From: Fimbriimonas sp.
GTDB lineage: Bacteria; Armatimonadota; Fimbriimonadia; Fimbriimonadales; Fimbriimonadaceae
Assembly: GCA_030447945.1 (NCBI GenBank)
Contig: JAUJNV010000061.1
Location: 1-13,595 of the forward strand
DNA: 13,595 nucleotides
Direction of reading: 5' to 3'
This document shows positions 1,808 through 13,007 of the stretch, piece after piece. Below the pieces are notes generated by a model. It was not told where the DNA came from, searched no databases, and saw nothing but the letters and a program-made list of their open reading frames with translations. The translations under genes were made by a program, and so were the position numbers. The number at the start of each line of letters is the position of its first letter. Position 1 is the first letter of the stretch.

Positions 1808-2632
1808 ATGCGCATCGGCGAAGCACAGGACCTGAGGGTGGCCCGGGAGACGGACCACGGACTTTATCTCGCCGATGCGGAGGACGAGGTGCTTCTTCCG
1901 CGTGGACAAGTGCCGCGCGGCACCGGGATCGGAGACACCCTGCGCGTGTTCGTCTACACGGACTCGGAGGACCGCCCCGTCGCGACGACGAAGAAGCCGT
2001 ACGCGGCGGTAGGCGAGTTCGCGAGGTTGCGCGTCGTCTCGGTGACCGAGGCGGGCGCGTTTCTCGACTGGGGGTTGGACAAGGACCTCTTCTGCCCCCT
2101 GCGCGAGCAGCAGCCCCGAATGCGCGAAGGCTACGAGTATCTTGTGCGGATCTACCTCGACGAGGCCTCCCGGCGGGTGGTCTGCACGGGCAAGCTCGCC
2201 CGATTCCTCCGGTCCAACGGGGAGGGACTAAGGCCGGGCCAGCCCGTGAAGATCATGGTGATGGACCGCAATCCCGAGCTGATCAGCGTCATCGTCGACA
2301 ACTACATCAAGGGCTCGCTGTTCCCGGACGAGTGGCACGAGCGCCTGGAGGTGGGGGACGTGCGGGACGCCTTCGTCAAGAGCGTCCGCCCCGAGGATCA
2401 CAAGGTGGCGGTGTCGCTCCGGCCCCAGGGGTACCAGGCGGTGATGGGCGAGCGCGAACGGCTCCTGGGGGCGCTGAGGGCGGCCGGCGGCACGCTGCTG
2501 GTGTCCGACAAGTCCTCGCCCGACGAAATCCAGCGCCGCTTCGGCCTGAGCAAGGGCGCGTTCAAGAAGCCCTGCTCGGCGCGCTCTATCGAGAAGGCCA
2601 GATCGAACTCGAAGCGCACCGCATCCGTTTGA
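1808..2632 (+). CDS. cvfB: CvfB-like S1 domain RNA-binding protein, frameshifted near the C-terminus
   Basis: The 274-residue frame shows the CvfB layout. There is an N-terminal S1-like barrel (about 1-65, with HGLYLADAEDEVLLPRGQV), a canonical S1 domain (about 66-135, with GAFLDWGLDKDLFCPLREQ), a third S1-like part (about 150-210) and a C-terminal winged helix (from about 220, SPDEIQRRFGLSKGAFKK). CvfB proteins bind RNA and affect virulence and gene expression in Firmicutes. After FKK the frame goes wrong (PCSARS...), while the next frame continues as expected (ALLGALYREGQIELEAHRIRLK). One G is probably missing near 2569. A second indel near 2600-2630 is likely, because the restored frame has no nearby stop. 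The Shine-Dalgarno is weak. The dus gene follows at once. Confidence 0.82.
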   Translation: MRIGEAQDLRVARETDHGLYLADAEDEVLLPRGQVPRGTGIGDTLRVFVYTDSEDRPVATTKKPYAAVGEFARLRVVSVTEAGAFLDWGLDKDLFCPLREQQPRMREGYEYLVRIYLDEASRRVVCTGKLARFLRSNGEGLRPGQPVKIMVMDRNPELISVIVDNYIKGSLFPDEWHERLEVGDVRDAFVKSVRPEDHKVAVSLRPQGYQAVMGERERLLGALRAAGGTLLVSDKSSPDEIQRRFGLSKGAFKKPCSARSIEKARSNSKRTASV

Positions 2633-2650
2633 AACGCCCAACCGCCGACC

Positions 2651-3635
2651 ATGCTCAAACCCGACGCCCCGGCCTTGGTCCTCGCACCGATGGACGGCAT
2701 CACCGACGCGCCCATGCGCGCCCTCCAGGGCGCCTCCGGCGCGTTCACCTACGCGGTCTCGGAGTTTCTCCGGGTCGGCATCGAGCCCTTGCCCGCCAAG
2801 GTGTTCCGCCGCGAAGTGCCCGAGCTGGGCCACGGATCGCTCACGCCGACAGGGCTGCCGGTCCAGGTGCAGATCCTGGGAGGCGACCCGGGGGCGGATG
2901 GCGAAGTCCGCCCCTTGTCGCCTGCGGGGCGGGCGCTCAAGCGATCGACATCAACTTCGGCTGCCCGGCGCCGACGGTGAACCGGCACGACGGGGCGCAT
3001 CGCTGCCCCGCATCCCGAGAGGATTCGCGAGATCGTGGCGGCCGTGCGCGCGGCGGTGCCCGAGGAGGTTCCTGTCTCGGCGAAGCTAAGACTGAGTTGG
3101 GACTCCATCGACCAGATCTCTCTCAACGCGGAGATGGCCGCCGAAGGGGAGCGTCTTGGCTGACGATCCACGCCCGTACGCGCGTGCAGGGCTACTCGCC
3201 GCCCGTCTTTTGAAGCCCATCATCGAAGGTTCGCGAAGCGCTCGGCCTGCCCGTCGTCGCGAACGGCGATATCTGGACCCTCGAAGACTTTCGCCGGTGC
3301 GAGGAGGAGACGGGTTGTCGCCACTTCATGATCGGCCGCAGCGCCCTCGCCAATCCGGCTCTGCCTTACCATGTCGCCCGCGAGCTCGGCATCGGAAAGG
3401 GCAAGATCGCCGGGGAGACGAACTGGATCGCCCTTCTGCAGAGCCTCGTCGCGTACACCGAACTCTACGCGGACCGCGTCACGCCGCGTCCGCTGATGCG
3501 AATTAAACAATGGCTGAAGATCGCCGGCACCTTCGGCGACTTTGCCCACTTCGACCGGTGAAGCACGCGCAGACGGCGGAGGAAGTTTTCGCCCTTCTCG
3601 CCGAAGCCGACCGAACTTCCCGAGCTGCTGCGTAA
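2651..3635 (+). pseudogene. dus: tRNA-dihydrouridine synthase, broken by eight single-base indels
   Basis: Spliced across frames, the product is a complete Dus enzyme of about 328 residues. Dus is an FMN- and NADPH-dependent reductase of uridine in the tRNA D-loop. Motifs in order: LAPMDGITDAPMRAL (FMN site), VQILGGDP, AIDINFGCPAPTVNRHDG with the catalytic-type Cys, WLTIHARTRVQGY, PVVANGDIW, and HFMIGRSALANP (phosphate binding). The NFGCPAPTVN form resembles DusC from memory. Frame breaks: extra base near 2891-2895 and 2911-2914; missing base near 2991, 3009, 3148 and 3211; extra base near 3228; missing base near 3560. Net change is -2: 985 bases become 987, which is 329 codons ending at TAA 3633-3635. 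All motifs survive, so sequence errors are more likely than a dead gene. It starts 18 bases after the cvfB stop, probably in an operon with it. Confidence 0.85.
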
Positions 3636-3712
3636 CGTCCCTTGCGGTTGCCGGGGTTTGGCCTGTCGCGCCCGTCTCCCCTCTCAGCGGCGCTCCGGCT
3701 CCAGGAATTTGC

Positions 3713-4219
3713 ATGATGAAACAGACCTTCCGCCTCACTCTCGTCCTCGCGGCGGCCCTCGCCACGCTTCCTCTCGCCATCGCCCAGGCTCCCCGAGGGC
3801 AGCCTAAGGCAGGCCAGCGCCAGGGCGGCGTTCAGGTCACGCCCCACTTCCGCCAGGCCATGGAGGCATGGCGGAAGTGGAACGCCTCCACCCGAACATC
3901 CGCGCCGTCCAGCGCATGCTCGGGGGGCTCCACATGCTCGAGCGCGATCCCAAGCTGAAGCTCACGAAGCCCCAGGCCAAGAGCGTGCTCGCCGTCCTGA
4001 ACGCGTGGCGCGCCAAGCCCGTGATGACCAACGCCCAAGCGGGCGCCGTGAACAAGCAGCTCACCGCCTCGCTCACGCAGGCGCAGAGGCCAGGATCGCC
4101 TGCCGGCCGCCGAGGACAGGCGGCGCCGGCAGGCTGGAGGGGCGAGAGGCCAAGGCGGCATGGGCCGACCCGGAGGGGGGAGGCCAGGCGGCCCCGGAGG
4201 AGCCGGGCGCCGGGAGTAA
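3713..4219 (+). CDS. Secreted protein of unknown function with Gly/Arg/Pro-rich tail, two frame breaks
   Basis: AGGA at 3703-3706 precedes tandem ATGs (3713, 3716). The product starts with a Sec signal peptide (MMKQTFRLTLVLAAALATLP, cleaved near AIAQA). A helical region follows in another frame after a missing base near 3867 (MAEVERLHPNIRAVQRMLGG, then LKLTKPQAKSVLAVLNAWRA and MTNAQAGAVNKQLTASLTQAQ). After an extra base near 4088, the third frame gives a basic, low-complexity tail (GMGRPGGGRPGGPGGAGRRE) ending at TAA 4217-4219. The indels cancel: 507 bases, 168 residues. I do not recognise a family. The repeated LTK/MTNAQA helices loosely resemble periplasmic Spy/CpxP-like helical proteins, which is weak inference. 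It converges on the M3 peptidase gene. Confidence 0.6.
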
Positions 4220-6719: not shown

Positions 6720-6766
6720 AGGGTTGAGGGTTGCGCCCGGAGCCTTCTCCCTCAACCCTCAACCCT
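6720..6766. terminator. Hairpin with 14-bp perfect arms after the small membrane protein gene
   Basis: AGGGTTGAGGGTTG (6720-6733) is perfectly complementary to CAACCCTCAACCCT (6753-6766), with a 19-base loop that itself can form GGAG/CTCC. It starts 12 bases after the stop at 6707 and lies before the next rightward gene. It could end transcription, but no T-run follows. The arm is built from a repeated GGGTTGA word that also appears in the 4376-4385 loop (GGGTTGAGGT), so it may instead be a repeat family. Confidence 0.45.
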
Positions 6767-6829: not shown

Positions 6830-7417
6830 ATGCGGACCTTGACCCTCGGCTACGTCTTCCTCGGTGCTGCGCTGTGCACCCCCGCCCTCGCCCAACGCGT
6901 CGCGCAGTCGAACCGGGCCGCCCTGGACCGTGCCGTGGCCGCCACCATCGCCGCCATCCGGTCGGACAACTGGAGAGCCCTCGGGGCGATGGCCGATACG
7001 CGGAAGGGACTCACGATCTACTACCTCTATCCCGACAACCGCCATCCGTTCACCCCCGCCGCCTGGCGCAGCGCGCTGGCCTCCCGCAAGAGCATCACCT
7101 GGGTGAAGGCCATGCCGGGCGACGGCGGCATGCGCCCGGCGATCCGAATGACGCTTCCGGAATTCCTGCAGGGGATCGCGCGCGTCGACTGGCGCCGCCC
7201 GACGAAGCGGTCGTACGACCGGGGCGAAGAGGTGGTCTACCGCACGCTGGTCCCCCAGGGCCTCAAGCGCCGTCACCCCGGCGTCCGTTTCGTCGACCTC
7301 ATGAAGATGAGCCCAGAGAACGAGTTCCAGAACGCCCTCATCCTCGGATTCTCCCGTATCGGGGGAAGAGGCGGTTACCGCCTCTCGGTCATCGGCGTCG
7401 ACCAGTGGAAGGATTAG
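6830..7417 (+). CDS. Secreted protein of unknown function
   Basis: A 195-residue protein with a clear Sec signal peptide (MRTLTLGYVFLGAALCTPALA, cleavage probably after ALA, before QRVAQ). The mature part begins with a helix (RAALDRAVAATIAAIRSDNWRALGAMAD), then a strand-rich segment (LTIYYLYPDNRHPFTPAAW), a conserved-looking FVDLMKMSPENEFQNALILG and a terminal strand (YRLSVIGVDQWKD). A helix followed by curved strands could be an NTF2-like or SnoaL-like fold, but I see no diagnostic motif and do not claim it. The product is probably periplasmic or extracellular. The ribosome binding site is weak (TGGA). The frame is intact. A repeat hairpin (7441-7477) lies 24 bases past its stop and may act as its terminator. 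Confidence 0.7.
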   Translation: MRTLTLGYVFLGAALCTPALAQRVAQSNRAALDRAVAATIAAIRSDNWRALGAMADTRKGLTIYYLYPDNRHPFTPAAWRSALASRKSITWVKAMPGDGGMRPAIRMTLPEFLQGIARVDWRRPTKRSYDRGEEVVYRTLVPQGLKRRHPGVRFVDLMKMSPENEFQNALILGFSRIGGRGGYRLSVIGVDQWKD

Positions 7418-7440
7418 GCCTCGTCCGAATCCCTTCTGGT

Positions 7441-7477
7441 GTACAAAGCCTCTCGGCGCAAGCTGGGGGCTTTGTAC
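7441..7477. repeat. Repeat hairpin copy 1 (GNRA-loop stem)
   Basis: GTACAAAGCC (7441-7450) pairs perfectly with GGCTTTGTAC (7468-7477). After one bulged T the stem continues (CT with GG, then CGGC with GCTG) to a GCAA tetraloop, giving 16 pairs in 37 nt. It is located just after the stop of the 6830 gene. Related copies lie at 9115 and 10480. Confidence 0.8.
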
Positions 7478-7609
7478 TTTATGATGACCCGGCACTCATG
7501 GGCTTATTCCCCCACGTTGTCTCGCTTGGAGCCACTACCAGTGGCAACCTGCTGAGCGCCGTTCCCGTAAATGATTCGTGCGACTCAACATGACCTCGGG
7601 GCGACGGCC

Positions 7610-7967
7610 ATGAAGTCGTTCGCAATGCTCCTCGTGCATCGGTTGGTTTCTGCTCGCCACGGGGATTCTGGGACTCGTGAGAGCACCGAGAGAAGTACGG
7701 TCTGTTGAGGAGAAAGCGAAGAGGGCACTTGCAATCGGCTCCGACGTAACGGCCAACCCGAAGGCCCACAACCCCAACTTGGTGCGGATCCTAGAGGTGA
7801 GTGACCAGGCTTTGTACGGTCTCGAGCGTGGCGCGCCATACATCATATATGGCAGTGCCATCGGCTCCACCATCGGCGGACTCCTTCTACTCGTCCTCGG
7901 ACGTACGGTCACGCGGTGGGGCCGCCGCACAGTAGTTCGTGAGCAAGCTTCCCCAGCGGACGTATGA
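7610..7967 (+). CDS. Small two-TM membrane protein, one frame break
   Basis: The 96-residue frame that starts at GTG 7677 lacks its natural beginning. From ATG 7610 another frame reads MKSFAMLLV. If one extra C near 7634-7638 is removed, it joins IGWFLLATGILGLVRAP, a clean N-terminal transmembrane segment, and then the long frame. 358 bases minus one gives 119 codons, 118 residues. The middle is charged (REVRSVEEKAKRALAIGSD) and probably extracytoplasmic. A second transmembrane segment follows (YIIYGSAIGSTIGGLLLLVLG), with a basic tail (RTVTRWGRRTVVRE) that is probably cytoplasmic. No family recognised. It stands alone, 132 bases after repeat hairpin copy 1. GC appears lower than in the flanking genes. 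GTG 7677 remains a possible start if the indel is not real. Confidence 0.55.
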
Positions 7968-8188
7968 ACTAGAGCTTGTTCAACTAGCGGACCACGGTTG
8001 GGTCTGCATAAGTAACCCCCCGCCTTGAAGGGAATAGCTTGTCCTGGCGAGACAGAGAGACGCGAGGCACGCGGGACTCCATAGGCGGCTGCCAGGCTCT
8101 CTCGGCCTTCTGAGTGCTCAATCGGCGCGATGGCAATTCTATCCTCGTCCAACCGGGTGGACTCTTCCCCGTCGGCTACTATCAGGTC

Positions 8189-8973
8189 ATGGGAGTAGCT
8201 CCTAGGGATGCCCCACGTCATCGGTTAGTCGATGTTGCCCTGTTCGCCGGGCTGATCGGCTTAGGAGTCCTTTTACCGGCCACGTACTCCTGGGTAGCAG
8301 CGAAGCCGATTTCAGTCAGCATGGGGGTTGGCCCCCTTTTGGTGTTCGCGGGATTCTTCGTGCTATCTGTTCTGTCGAAGTCGCGGGACACGCAGCCACA
8401 GGCCCTACCGGAACCGGCGGCCACGCTACTGAACGACACGCTGACAGCCGAAGGGCTCACACGTGCACGGCTTCTTTTCGGAGCGTCGGGGCCGACCGCT
8501 AGTTTCCCGCGGCCCATTTGCTTTGGCATACACGTGGTCGTGCCGAGGAAGGTGCTGGACGAGTTCACCAGGGATGCGCTTCTTTGGAGTGTAAAGACGG
8601 ACGCGGCTGCTTCGATCAAATTCGGCCGGAGTGGGGCCGCCAGCGTTGGTCCTTATGATTTGGGCTTGCTTGCTCCTGTTGGGTCTCCTTGAACGTTGGA
8701 AGCTGCCGTCTGTTTACTTCGGCATTCCGATATTGCTGCTGGTGGCGTCGTTCGTCGGGTTCTCCCTCCTCGGCTTCGCTTTTCAAGTTCAGGCCGACAA
8801 GCGGTTCACCCTGACGGACGCCGATCGCCGCGCCGCGAGGAGGCCTAAGCTATCCTTACTTCGACCAGGCGGATCGGGCACCCTCGCAAAAATGGATGTT
8901 TTTCCGGGCGGAGCTTCGGGGGCGAGTAAAACGCCTCGGAATCGCGTTGGAGCGGGACTATCGAGCTTCATAA
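8189..8973 (+). pseudogene. M48-like membrane metallopeptidase homologue with replaced catalytic motif; two frame breaks
   Basis: Three frames join into one plausible protein of about 260 residues. Part 1 (ATG 8189; an in-frame GTG exists at 8114) has two transmembrane segments (VDVALFAGLIGLGVLLPATY and MGVGPLLVFAGFFVLSVLSK), then VVVPRKVLDEFTRDALLWSVKTDAAASIKFGR. After an extra base near 8631, part 2 has two more segments (LVLMIWACLLLLGLLERW and FGIPILLLVASFVGFSLLGF) and QVQADKRFTLTDADRRAA. After an extra base near 8840, part 3 reads YFDQADRAPSQKWMFFRAEL then RGRVKRLGIALERDYRAS and stops at 8971-8973. This order is that of M48 (HtpX/Ste24) peptidases, but HExxH is replaced by T137-D-A-A-A and the third-ligand position by Gln. 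Family assignment is inference. The start has no good ribosome binding site. Confidence 0.5.
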
Positions 8974-9309
8974 TCGGTAGGCAAGCATCATTGGGTCCTG
9001 TTCGGCATCCGCATATACCTGTGTTACGAGCCCCTAATGCGCCGCGACACCTCACGTGTCAGCCGTGCCCGCTCAACGCGCTGCCGCCGCAGTTCTGACG
9101 GCATCCAGCCAGGTGTACAAAGCCTCTCGGCGCAAGCTGGGGGTTTTTATCAGTCTGGGGGTCGGCGACTGTCGCGCAGCACTGGTGCGCAGTTCTGTCT
9201 TTGATGCCTAGCGCCAGCGTCCGCACCGCAGGAATCGCCAAGTGCTCTCTACCGTCAGCCCCTCTCTTCGATTTGGGCGAAGAAACCCCCTCTTTCAGCA
9301 TCCGATTCT
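8974..9309. other. Gene-free stretch between convergent genes
   Basis: No convincing gene on either strand. It contains the block shared with copy 3 (from 9092), repeat hairpin copy 2 (9115-9150) and a weak inverted repeat GCGCA/TGCGC near 9175-9193. It separates the M48-like gene (ending 8973, plus) from the lipoprotein gene (ending 9310, minus), so it must hold both 3' ends. Confidence 0.5.
9092..9150. repeat. Repeat hairpin copy 2, with degenerate right arm
   Basis: The block from GTTCTGAC (9092) through CCAGCCAGGTGTAC is shared with copy 3. From GTACAAAGCC (9115-9124) through CTCTCGGCGCAAGCTGGGGG it is identical to copy 1. The right arm has lost GGCTTTGTAC and reads GGGGGTTTTTATC instead, giving a T-run like a factor-independent terminator. 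It lies between two convergent genes. Confidence 0.75.
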
Positions 9310-9652
9310 CTACCAGAGGTCGCGGAATTCGATGCGCACGAAACCTCGCCGGATCGGTGCGACAGTCCCAAATGATCTTGAGAATGTGACCAGGCGCGAG
9401 CTGATAGCTCATGGGAAAGGACTCCGGCGGGGCCGCTGCCTCCGATTCTGTTCCCATAGACGCTTTCCCTCAGCCCAAGCGTCTGCCACACCTCGGGCTC
9501 GGTCATCCCCGGGCGCAAGTTCTTGGCGCGCCCCTTGATCTCTGAACGACGTCCGGTGGGAGGTTTTGAGGCCCGTAGCAGCCCGCGAGACCGAGACAGA
9601 CGATGGCACCGAAGGCGAGGACCGACCTGGCGGCGGTAGCGTGGTGCTTCAT
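9310..9652 (-). pseudogene. BamE/SmpA-like small lipoprotein, three frame breaks
   Basis: On the minus strand ATG 9652 has GGAG seven bases upstream and encodes a lipoprotein signal peptide (MKHHATAARSVLAFGAIVCL, then the lipobox LAGC with the Cys at residue 25). The mature start is CYGPQNLPPDVVQ. A missing base near 9535 leads into IKGRAKNLRPGMTEPEVWQ then TLGLRESVYGNRIGGSGP, where GMTEPEVWQTLG is the typical opening helix of BamE/SmpA-like folds. An extra base near 9433 leads to PESFPMSYQLAPGHILKIIW. Another near 9352 leads to RGFVRIEFRDLW and TAG (9312-9310). Net +1: 343 bases become 342, 113 residues. Being lipid-anchored, it probably sits in the periplasm facing the outer or inner membrane. 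A role in outer-membrane assembly is not shown, since this fold has many uses. Confidence 0.6.
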
Positions 9653-9772
9653 CGATCGTCTCCGCTACTTACGCCCATAAGAGGTCTCAGGCTGGGCAAA
9701 AGGTTCTTCCGACATCCTCCCGGGGAAGTGGCTGCGCAGCCTGACAGCAGCGCGAGCGCAGTTCGAACTTCG

Positions 9773-9826
9773 GTCAGCCAGGCTGACTGCCACTTTTTAC
9801 ATCCGCTAGTCGGGTCCCGACCGGAT
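9773..9826. repeat. Two adjacent palindromes between dinB-like and lipoprotein genes
   Basis: GTCAGCCAGGCTGAC (9773-9787) is a perfect 7-bp palindrome around one base, followed six bases later by TTTTT (9794-9798). ATCCG (9801-9805) and CGGAT (9822-9826) flank GTCGGGTCCCGAC (9809-9821), another perfect palindrome. They lie downstream of the dinB-like gene and upstream of the lipoprotein gene, so they may be terminators or operator sites. Confidence 0.45.
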
Positions 9827-9891
9827 GGGATTCGAATTCTTCGGCTGAACTGTGTCTTGAACGACCTTTCTTCCCCAGCCCCATCAGCCCG

Positions 9892-10374
9892 TCAGAAATG
9901 CACTTCCTGGTCGTCCCAGCAGGTCTGGAGGTAGTCGATCTGCGCGCCGTGAGAGAGGGCGTGAACGGCAGGCAGATTCATCAACCAAGTCATGGGCACC
10001 GACCAACCGCGGCCGGAATCCAGGGTGGTGGCAATCTCGTCGGGCGTCAGAGTGTCCAATGCCGCTATGACATCGTCGGTCCCCTTCCGGAACACGCTTT
10101 CTACCTCCGCGCGGCTCGTTATTGCGATTTCTTCTGAGTTCACTTGTGCCAGCCACTCCGACAAGTTGTCACTTCGCGGGAGCTTTCTGGTCTCGATCAT
10201 GCGAGCGAATCTTCCAGCGTATAGGGCGGTGTGAGCGGCAATCCGGATGGCGGACTTCGCCGTCGGGGTCGGCGTCCAGGTCAATTTATCGTCCGGGACG
10301 AGCGAGAGTTTCCTTAGGAATCGCTCCATTTCATCGACGGCATTCTCTTTGCAGATTTCGACTAAGCCTTCCAT
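9892..10374 (-). CDS. DinB-fold protein (DinB_2/DUF664-like)
   Basis: An intact 160-residue protein with the four-helix-bundle DinB pattern and its metal-binding histidines: H48 in RIAAHTALYAGRF, then H138 and H142 in AVHALSHGAQIDYLQTCWDD. Members of this superfamily include thiol-dependent transferases (bacillithiol or mycothiol type) and many proteins of unknown function. The substrate here cannot be deduced. It is probably cytoplasmic, as no signal peptide is seen. The start at ATG 10374 is backed by AGGA about eight bases upstream. The gene stands alone and diverges from the glycosidase-like gene. No indels are seen, unlike the lipoprotein gene downstream of it. Confidence 0.85.
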   Translation of the reverse strand: MEGLVEICKENAVDEMERFLRKLSLVPDDKLTWTPTPTAKSAIRIAAHTALYAGRFARMIETRKLPRSDNLSEWLAQVNSEEIAITSRAEVESVFRKGTDDVIAALDTLTPDEIATTLDSGRGWSVPMTWLMNLPAVHALSHGAQIDYLQTCWDDQEVHF

Positions 10375-10456
10375 TCCACGGGTCCTTCAGAGTCTTCCAA
10401 TTCTGACTTAGCTCGGCGATGCGAAGTGATTTCGGCTACCGGTATCCGACACGAGA

Positions 10457-10517
10457 GTTCTGACCGTGTCCAGCCAGGTGTACCAAGCCTCTCGGCCAAA
10501 GCTAGAGGGCTTGGTAC
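10457..10517. repeat. Repeat hairpin copy 3, with compensating base changes
   Basis: It shares GTTCTGAC, TCCAGCCAGGTGTAC and AAGCCTCTCGGC with copy 2. The stem is GTACCAAGCC (10480-10489) with GGCTTGGTAC (10508-10517). The A-T pair of copy 1 is changed to C-G on both arms. In the middle CTCT can pair with AGAG. It lies in a divergent intergenic region, upstream of both neighbours, so it cannot be a terminator for either of them. Confidence 0.8.
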
Positions 10518-10640
10518 TGTTTGAGACCCACGGGGCTCGCTGCGCGGCTGCCCTATTCTTTTTTAGATACCTGGCGCCATAGTGACCGCCGTCGCAAGCA
10601 ACATCCGCGATGAGGGGTTTCGTCGCCCTGCCGGTGCATC

Positions 10641-13007
10641 ATGTGCTTCATGAAAATGCGGTGGTGCTTTCTCGTTTGCCTCGGAGCGGGGTTCATCGCG
10701 CTTGGAGTTGCGCCGTCCTTCGGACAGACGGCAGTGCAAGCGCCTAATAAAACGCCCCCTTCCGTTCCGCCACCACCGCCTGTGCCCGCCGACTTCCCCA
10801 CTTTCCACGTGCCCGGCTTCACAAGGGAGCTGGAGGCGGTGCGCAATCTGTTCTGGCTCCATTACCCGCCCGCGGCGCGCGGCCTGACGCCGACGTTGTA
10901 CGACGATTGGCTGGCCGGCGGCGCTCTGTGGCCCGCTGCCCTCCAAGATGCCGTGGCGCCGCCTCCTCCCGGCCCCAACCTGCTGAACGTGCCGAACACG
11001 GCGGGCCTGACCGGCATTGCGGCGACGCGCCTGCGCTGGAAGCAGATGCTGAGCACCCGCATCATGGACGGGGCGGGATACGTCGCGACGCACCAGCATT
11101 TTTCGATGGCCTACCCCCTCGGCTGGCCGCTGCCGCCCGGGCACTGGGGGTCAGGCGGCGCGCAGTGGCACTTCTCCTTCCAAGATACGATCGGCCCGCC
11201 CTACCGCCATAACGCGCTCTCCACACCGAAGGGTTGGACGCTCCGCGGCGTCGGCAACCACCGCGTGGAAAAAGATGGCTGGCATCTCCGATTGGAGGCG
11301 CCGGGAGCTTCGGTCACCTCGCCCATGCAGGAGATGAAGGCGTTCCAGATGCCGTTCTTGCTGGTCCTCTGGCACTCCTACGGATTGCGAGGCGCGCGAC
11401 CTTACATCGAGTGGACGACGCCGCGCCAGCCGAACTGGAGCGACCGGCGACGGGTCTACTTTCCGACGGCGGAGACCGGAGAGGTGCGGCTGCACCATCA
11501 CGGCACGCGGGCACGGCTCGAGGCCCTCGAAGAAGGCGCCATCGCGTATCAGTCCGTCCCCATGTGGAAGCACCGGGAATGGAGCGGCGACATCAGTCGG
11601 CTGCGCATCGGTTTCGGTAATCGCCGGGCCGGCGCCCGCGTCGCTTTGCAGGCGCTGGTTTCCTCCTACGACACGCGCCACAACGTCAACAACCAAGCGT
11701 TCATCATGGGCTGCGCCACCTACTTGGGCTGGACCGGCGACATCGAGTTCCTGCGCGACAACGCGGTGCGGATGCGCCGGGCCCTCCGCTTCATGCAGAA
11801 CGAGTACGGGACGCTGCGAAACGGTTACGTCACGACCCCATGGGTCGGGCACGAGGGGGGAAGCGGATTGGAACGAACGGGCGAAGGTCCGGCCAAAGCG
11901 CTCGCCGGACGCGGCGTGGGCAGCAACTACTGGGACTTGCTGCCCTTCGGCGGCAAGGACGCGTACGCCACGATCTTGTATTACGGCGCAGTCAAGCGCA
12001 TGATCGACGTCGAGCGCCAAATCCTCCATCATCCCGAATGGAGAATCCCCCGAGAGGGACGCTTCTCGGTCCGTGACCTGGAGAAGCACGCGGCCCACGT
12101 CAAGCGCGTCGCCAACCGGCTGTTTTGGAATCCACAGACGGGCCGCTTCGTCGCGAATATCGACGACCGGGGAAACGCCTACGACTACGGCTTCACCTTC
12201 GTCAATCTGGAAGCGATCCACTACGGCCTGGCGAGCGAAGATCGCGCCCGGCAGATCCTAAATTGGCTGAACGGCAAGCGCACCGTCGCGGGCGACACCT
12301 CGCAGGGGAAAGACATCTATCACTGGCGCTTTGGGCCTCGCTCCACCACCCGACGCAACCTCGACTACTACACGTTCTGGTGGAACAAGCCCGAGAACAC
12401 GCCCTGGGGCCATCAGGTGCAAGACGGCGGAGCGGTCTTGGCGTTTTCCTATCACGACTTGATGGCGCGCCTAAGGACGGCCGGCCCCGACGACGCCTGG
12501 GCGCGCCTGGAGGAAGTCGCGAAATGGTTTAACGAGGTAACGGCGGCGGGCGGTTACCGCGCTTTCTACGCGACCAACCCCGGGGGCGCGACCCTGCAAG
12601 GCGGGGGTCCCCCGGGCGGCCTGGGGATGGACCACGAGTTCAAGGAAAGCGTCTTGGTGCCCCAAGTGATGCTCGACGGCTTCATGGGCTTCGTGCCTCG
12701 CGGCGACGGATTCGCGCTCGACCCACGCCTGCCGCGCGACTGGCCCGAGCTCTCCATCGACCGTATCGCTTGGCACGACCAGGTGTTGCGCGTACACGCC
12801 GGTTCCGGGTTCATCGAGATTACGGCGCAACCCATGCCGGGAGCGAAAGGCACGAACGAGATCTGCTGGATCTCTCTGGCCCCTGGAAAGTGGCGCGTCG
12901 CGACGCCAGGTTTGAAACCGCGAAAGCGCGCCGACGGGGCGATCGGCGTGCGTTGGCATGGACTTAGTCACCTACGCCTGGAGCGCACGCGGATGAGTGC
13001 GGACTGA
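10641..13007 (+). CDS. Secreted six-hairpin (alpha/alpha)6 glycosidase-like protein
   Basis: An intact 788-residue frame. The real start may be the in-frame ATG at 10650 or 10656, giving a signal peptide (MKMRWCFLVCLGAGFIALG, cleaved near SFGQ), followed by a proline-rich linker. No strong ribosome binding site is visible. The N-terminal part is probably a beta-sandwich. The middle has the Trp/Tyr-rich repeats of an (alpha/alpha)6 barrel: GVGSNYWDLLPFGGKDAY (425-442), AYDYGFTFVNLEAIHYGLAS, and TPWGHQVQDGGAVLAF (H591, D595). A DHEFKES segment lies at 664-670, and the C-terminus is a strand-rich domain (LDPRLPRDWPELSIDRIAWH) as in GH78/GH63-type enzymes. I cannot name the GH family or the catalytic acids with certainty. 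The product is probably exported and acts on a polysaccharide. It stands alone, with repeat copy 3 upstream. Confidence 0.7.
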   Translation: MCFMKMRWCFLVCLGAGFIALGVAPSFGQTAVQAPNKTPPSVPPPPPVPADFPTFHVPGFTRELEAVRNLFWLHYPPAARGLTPTLYDDWLAGGALWPAALQDAVAPPPPGPNLLNVPNTAGLTGIAATRLRWKQMLSTRIMDGAGYVATHQHFSMAYPLGWPLPPGHWGSGGAQWHFSFQDTIGPPYRHNALSTPKGWTLRGVGNHRVEKDGWHLRLEAPGASVTSPMQEMKAFQMPFLLVLWHSYGLRGARPYIEWTTPRQPNWSDRRRVYFPTAETGEVRLHHHGTRARLEALEEGAIAYQSVPMWKHREWSGDISRLRIGFGNRRAGARVALQALVSSYDTRHNVNNQAFIMGCATYLGWTGDIEFLRDNAVRMRRALRFMQNEYGTLRNGYVTTPWVGHEGGSGLERTGEGPAKALAGRGVGSNYWDLLPFGGKDAYATILYYGAVKRMIDVERQILHHPEWRIPREGRFSVRDLEKHAAHVKRVANRLFWNPQTGRFVANIDDRGNAYDYGFTFVNLEAIHYGLASEDRARQILNWLNGKRTVAGDTSQGKDIYHWRFGPRSTTRRNLDYYTFWWNKPENTPWGHQVQDGGAVLAFSYHDLMARLRTAGPDDAWARLEEVAKWFNEVTAAGGYRAFYATNPGGATLQGGGPPGGLGMDHEFKESVLVPQVMLDGFMGFVPRGDGFALDPRLPRDWPELSIDRIAWHDQVLRVHAGSGFIEITAQPMPGAKGTNEICWISLAPGKWRVATPGLKPRKRADGAIGVRWHGLSHLRLERTRMSAD

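Follow-up and report, generated by a model that had tools for sequence, protein, structure and literature searches.

A possible small repeat family: three copies of a terminator-shaped hairpin in a Fimbriimonas contig

Three copies of a short hairpin were identified within 3 kb on the plus strand of contig JAUJNV010000061.1 of Fimbriimonas sp., which was analyzed here over its whole length of 13,595 nts (hereafter the window). We see about an even chance that they represent a small dispersed palindromic repeat family, lineage-restricted as far as searched, with the shape of a bidirectional intrinsic terminator (AAGCC-stem-loop-stem-GGCTT). The best reading of its nature is that the repeat was derived from, or acts as, a 3'-end or terminator hairpin. 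A repeat of three copies had been noted previously from the sequence alone (the original prediction), and comparison within the window bore it out, with all copies on the same strand:

7441..7477, plus strand: hairpin copy 1, with a perfect 10-bp outer stem, one bulged T in the inner stem and a GCAA loop
9115..9151, plus strand: hairpin copy 2, with the left arm, inner stem and GCAA loop of copy 1, a right outer arm TTTTTATC and a T5 tail
10480..10517, plus strand: hairpin copy 3, with a compensating A-T to C-G change in the outer stem, a CAAA loop and one additional base

Copies 1 and 2 have an exact 32-nt core in common, for which the chance expectation in 13.6 kb is about 1.5e-10 pairs, and copy 3 is a diverged relative; together they form a 53-nt family with 77-85% identity among the copies. 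Because of this core and the identity across the family, the copies are considered homologous rather than convergent. A covariance model built from the three copies (R1; one base of copy 3 is omitted from the model and from the pair counts) scored them at 68.5, 62.4 and 57.5 bits, and the best other site in the window reached 12.2 bits. No fourth copy was detected elsewhere in the contig by this model or by gapped alignment of each copy to the remainder of the window, in which no score lay above the largest shuffle score. A lone exact stem arm (GTACAAAGCC) is located on the minus strand at 7808-7817, between copies 1 and 2.

The 10-bp outer stem is perfect in copies 1 and 3, which have the inner stem as well, but not in copy 2. 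All four positions at which copy 2 differs from copy 1 lie in the right arm: of the sixteen pairs, three are lost and one has turned into G-U, three of the four outermost pairs are broken, and a shorter hairpin remains, followed by TTTTTAT. Equally good RNA folds were obtained from none of 200 shuffles for copy 1, four of 200 for copy 3 and eight of 200 for copy 2, and copy 2 folded as DNA was equalled by 61 of 200; when the window was shuffled 20 times (first order), four of the shuffles contained a stem of at least 10 bp. The GCAA loop that had been noted for copy 1 is present, and copy 2 has it too.

The compensating change in copy 3, from which it had been concluded that the structure and not the sequence is kept, is also present, and it is the single pair changed on both sides; two pairs are changed on one side, and copies 1 and 3 differ by one U-G to U-A change. 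The proposed check of covariation significance found this one compensating pair in the three copies, but 164 of 500 shuffles reached the same values (one pair, three rows). When one left-arm and two right-arm changes were placed at random in a simulation, a compensating pair arose in 5.4% of cases and all 16 pairs remained standard in 1.0%, which hints that pairing was retained between copies 1 and 3; copy 2, whose outer stem is lost, points the opposite way. An RNA function does not follow from the matched change, as template switching is another way in which palindromes can be corrected: the change may reflect selection on the hairpin or, just as well, such a correction without RNA function. 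There is little evidence for a conserved RNA structure, and the inference drawn from the change is not supported by three copies.

As in intrinsic terminators, the hairpins are GC-rich. After the stem, copy 2 has a T5 tract, and runs of T do not exceed three in copies 1 and 3; the best 8 nts contain five, six and five T in copies 1, 2 and 3, respectively. The form of copy 2, a hairpin with T5, is the standard one. A terminator scan of the window gave 15 sites versus 9.1 expected from shuffles, and picked copies 1 and 2 but not copy 3.

To look beyond the contig, 291 genomes of the phylum, 400 sampled Chloroflexota genomes and IMG/VR were searched, and no family members were found in any of them. 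The pattern GTACNAAGCCTCTCGGC has no exact match in the 291 genomes, and its one-mismatch places number 22 versus 28 for the reversed control. At these 22 places, the right arm reaches at most 7 of 10 identities in 20, 8 in locus L091 and 9 in locus L103; random places in the same loci would give 0.51 of 22 reaching 8 and 0.05 of 22 reaching 9, and L103 exceeds the average chance match. L103 was rejected as a relative, as R1 has no match there up to E 1 and the site lies among other GC-rich inverted repeats, and L091 (12.8 bits with R1) was not counted. With up to three mismatches in genome G002 alone, the pattern was found at 169 places versus 227 in the control. IMG/VR contains one exact match without the right arm, besides which nothing was found in the 80 collected loci, and two stem-loops matched there by the two-arm pattern are both unrelated. 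One of the 400 Chloroflexota genomes has a one-mismatch match, without the right arm, and six single Chloroflexota genomes have none. Plasmids queried with 7417-7500 and phages queried with 7400-10640 gave no match, and a limited literature search, by titles and abstract openings, found no such palindromic repeat for Armatimonadetes.

The covariance-model search suggested in the original prediction was run on the same 291 genomes and yielded no relatives; its matches are mostly terminator-shaped. R1 reached E ≤0.1 in 18 genomes, with the best match (5.7e-5, in G011) being terminator-shaped with T5. Among the 20 matches listed, which were scored for T content, 13 have a T run of at least five and 19 have at least five T in the best 8 nts. 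This search used stricter filters than a repeat on 13 genomes, which scored more candidates; the best E values of the latter (0.0051) and of a search in G026 alone (0.24) do not beat that of the 291-genome search.

Dispersed palindromes of other sequence do occur in the phylum, as indicated by the repeat segments of G026 (L152-L171, 400 kb sampled), and this was counted in favor of a palindromic repeat family. In that sample, 432 segments of repeated 20-mers were found, and 372 of these recur at another place within it; long multicopy stretches are among them, and many of the 60 segments listed are arms of nested palindromes. An equal 400-kb sample of G002 has 13 repeat segments, two of them with a copy elsewhere, and perfect stems of at least 13 bp number 82 in G026 and 10 in G002. 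Two other intergenic gaps of the window contain palindromes of their own, a 14-bp perfect stem (AGGGTTGAGGGTTG) at 6720-6766 and an inverted repeat of 51 nts with 75% complementarity at 1320-1485.

The genes and reading frames around the copies are as follows:

6830..7417, plus strand: reading frame before copy 1, with third-position GC of 0.87 in 6901-7500 and no homologue found
7478..10479, no strand: stretch between copies 1 and 3, with GC of 0.58-0.62 and weak codon periodicity
9892..10374, minus strand: DinB-like gene (PF12867, E 1.8e-10), with its start 105 nts left of copy 3
10641..13007, plus strand: gene for a protein with a GH65 C-terminal domain, with its start 123 nts right of copy 3

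A reading frame ends at most 23 nts upstream of two of the three copies: copy 1 begins 23 nts past the stop of ORF 6830-7417 and copy 2 begins 16 nts past that of ORF 8631-9098, one of these frames being doubtful. In plus-strand RNA, the hairpin would cap or terminate the upstream transcript; copy 2 would be expected to terminate well, and poorer termination is expected of copies 1 and 3 owing to their interrupted T tracts. The genes on either side of copy 3 are divergent, as had been stated. The claim that this setting excludes a terminator is a weak argument, given the reading frames that precede copies 1 and 2 and the T5 of copy 2; between the divergent starts, copy 3 may be a spread copy without a terminator job, or may weakly affect the leader of 10641-13007.

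Several observations weigh against a dispersed repeat of terminator origin. All copies are confined to one 3-kb stretch, with none elsewhere in the contig, which is atypical of a genome-wide repeat. The T run of copies 1 and 3 is three at the longest. Frame 8631-9098 has little coding signal, leaving a gene 3' end that is fairly secure for copy 1 only, and both genes beside copy 3 lie downstream of it. Moreover, G002, whose M3 peptidase groups with that of the window, is nearly free of dispersed repeats in the sample.

Regarding the rest of the window, frame 6830-7417 comprises 195 codons with strong third-position GC and has no homologue among the proteins searched; homologues were also sought for frame 8114-8692, and none was found. 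At 2500-3213, a CvfB-like protein near its end and a dihydrouridine synthase are each split over two frames, which suggests contig indel errors or decayed genes; the CvfB-like profile match ends at 38 of 58, and its continuation in another frame was seen by eye. The M3 peptidase of the window reaches no more than 61% identity with any of the 79 loci found. In a tree of 31 of these 79 loci with G026 and the window, it groups with the Armatimonadota rows L003 and L004 (support 94/89, not starred), the rows nearest to it by path are Chloroflexota, and the peptidase of G026 (51% identical) is placed apart from it. The protein with the GH65 C-terminal domain is 79% identical to a G026 protein and 79-83% identical to metagenome proteins. 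No other window protein was found near the M3 or GH relatives in the 115 loci and three G026 loci compared.

The flanks of the copies differ in what they have in common:

9091..9111, plus strand: left flank outside the core of copy 2, common to copy 3 (18 of 21 nts identical)
10456..10476, plus strand: left flank outside the core of copy 3, common to copy 2 (sequence comparison)
7478..7490, plus strand: right flank of copy 1, with weak likeness to copy 3 (TTTATGATGACCC / TGTTTGAGACCC)
10518..10529, plus strand: right flank of copy 3, with weak likeness to copy 1 (sequence comparison)

The left-flank extension of copies 2 and 3 scored 27, with no equal among nearly 4000 random pairs. That of the right flanks of copies 1 and 3, over about 12 nts, scored 8 (p 0.008, or about 0.05 after six tests, which is marginal), and copies 1 and 2 have the core only in common, with scores of 0 and 0 on the two sides. 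Such mosaic flanks are expected after exchange at the core and also from partial copies of one longer repeat. By sequence comparison, likeness between the three places stops at about 55 nts. A 26-nt segment at 9757-9782 shows 73% likeness to the left flank that copies 2 and 3 have in common; it was rejected as a further copy, as the likeness does not continue into the hairpin. In the stretch 9757-9789, these flank-like 26 nts lead instead to a different small hairpin and then T5.

If the copies are plain terminators, one gene's terminator would have been duplicated locally twice and then have decayed, with no repeat family involved. We regard this as possible though on the unlikely side. The confinement of three same-strand copies to 3 kb, the standard terminator form of copy 2, the terminator shape of most R1 matches in other genomes and the additional 21 nts of left flank common to copies 2 and 3 all fit it. 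However, the duplicated piece would be merely repeat-sized, given where the likeness ends, and the T runs of copies 1 and 3 speak against it as well. The mosaic flanks also bring up exchange junctions, an improbable explanation in which the core is the crossover site for an inserted circle, consisting either of what lies between copies 1 and 2 or of two cassette-like segments, and copies 1 and 2 are hybrid junctions. The extension scores, together with the lower GC and weak codon periodicity between the copies, are in line with it. On the other side, neither a recombinase nor a transposase domain turned up in 14 of the 16 frames of at least 80 aa inside the stretch, paired attC boxes are absent, no empty site was seen, with no other window protein found beside the M3 or GH relatives examined, and the right-flank match of copies 1 and 3 is marginal. 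Furthermore, GC outside the stretch is mostly 0.63-0.71, but non-coding DNA, such as the gap 1201-1800 (0.61), would be expected to have lower GC as well, and codon periodicity is weak in places outside as well (e.g., 3001-4200), so these two features need not mean foreign DNA. A more specific form, in which the core is the recombination site of a cassette-like system and circles of left flank, core and right flank integrate at terminator-like hairpins, leaving mosaic junctions round the low-GC stretch, appears quite improbable to us. The finding would matter more only if the mosaic flanks turned out to mark exchange junctions, as we know of no hairpin-targeted cassette exchange outside integrons, a point on which no literature search was made.

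A structured regulatory RNA with a conserved fold is very improbable. The compensating pair, the U-G to U-A change and the strong folds of copies 1 and 3 are what such an RNA would leave, but the hairpin is simple and its outer stem is broken in copy 2. The suggestion of a structured RNA family found no backing elsewhere, with one covarying pair, no covariance-model relatives or other homologue in the 291 genomes, and no match reaching a gathering cut-off of Rfam 15 in the whole window; a lax Rfam scan of 7300-10640 gave one weak sub-threshold match over copy 1 (BjrC68, 16.5 bits vs a cut-off of 39, E 0.7). Least probable in our view is an uptake-sequence-like motif, GTACnAAGCC, present singly or in inverted pairs with a second role as terminators. 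When one mismatch at most is allowed, it has seven sites in the window versus 1.94 expected (one of 200 shuffles reaches seven), among them the exact lone arm at 7808-7817, but five of these sites are part of the three hairpins, and the lone sites come down to one exact and one mismatched copy. Uptake sequences form terminator hairpins elsewhere (PMC2267715), and this was counted for the motif.

Compared with known systems, the copies resemble integron attC sites in being hairpins in a single orientation, at a spacing of 1.4-1.7 kb. The attC boxes have the consensus RYYYAAC and GTTRRRY; unlike attC sites, none of the three copies has RYYYAAC followed by GTTRRRY within 60 nts on either side (one lone RYYYAAC lies near copy 2), and no integrase was found among the frames scanned. 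The repeat is REP-like, as had been proposed, in the loose sense of a short palindromic repeat between genes, whereas the two tagged super-families (GTAG and CGTC) do not fit: no copy has either tag on either strand (12 nts outside and 6 nts inside either end), and the frames scanned include no transposase. In PMC3733652, tagged REPs are described as intergenic palindromes of 20-40 bp located mostly downstream of genes and sometimes between divergent genes, an arrangement which the window copies may share; copy 1 is downstream of a gene, copy 2 is so if frame 8631-9098 is real, and copy 3 is not. The bacterial stem-loop repeat families of PMC2267715, which include uptake-sequence terminators, are likewise short repeated intergenic stem-loops and possibly terminators, but here the copies are three, counted in 13.6 kb. 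Intrinsic (rho-independent) terminators have in common with these copies the GC-rich hairpin preceded by A's and followed by T's (T5 in copy 2), and a stem style as in the terminator-shaped R1 matches of the phylum; they differ in that copies 1 and 3 are without a clean T tract and that the copies are near-identical, which independent terminators need not be. As a whole, the earlier observation was mostly right and is partly confirmed, and its interpretation is partly supported. Overall, the element is of an ordinary kind: a palindromic repeat, short and terminator-shaped, and restricted to its lineage within the searches made. As a spread terminator-like palindrome, if that is what it is, it would extend a well-known kind by a further small repeat family from a poorly sampled phylum.

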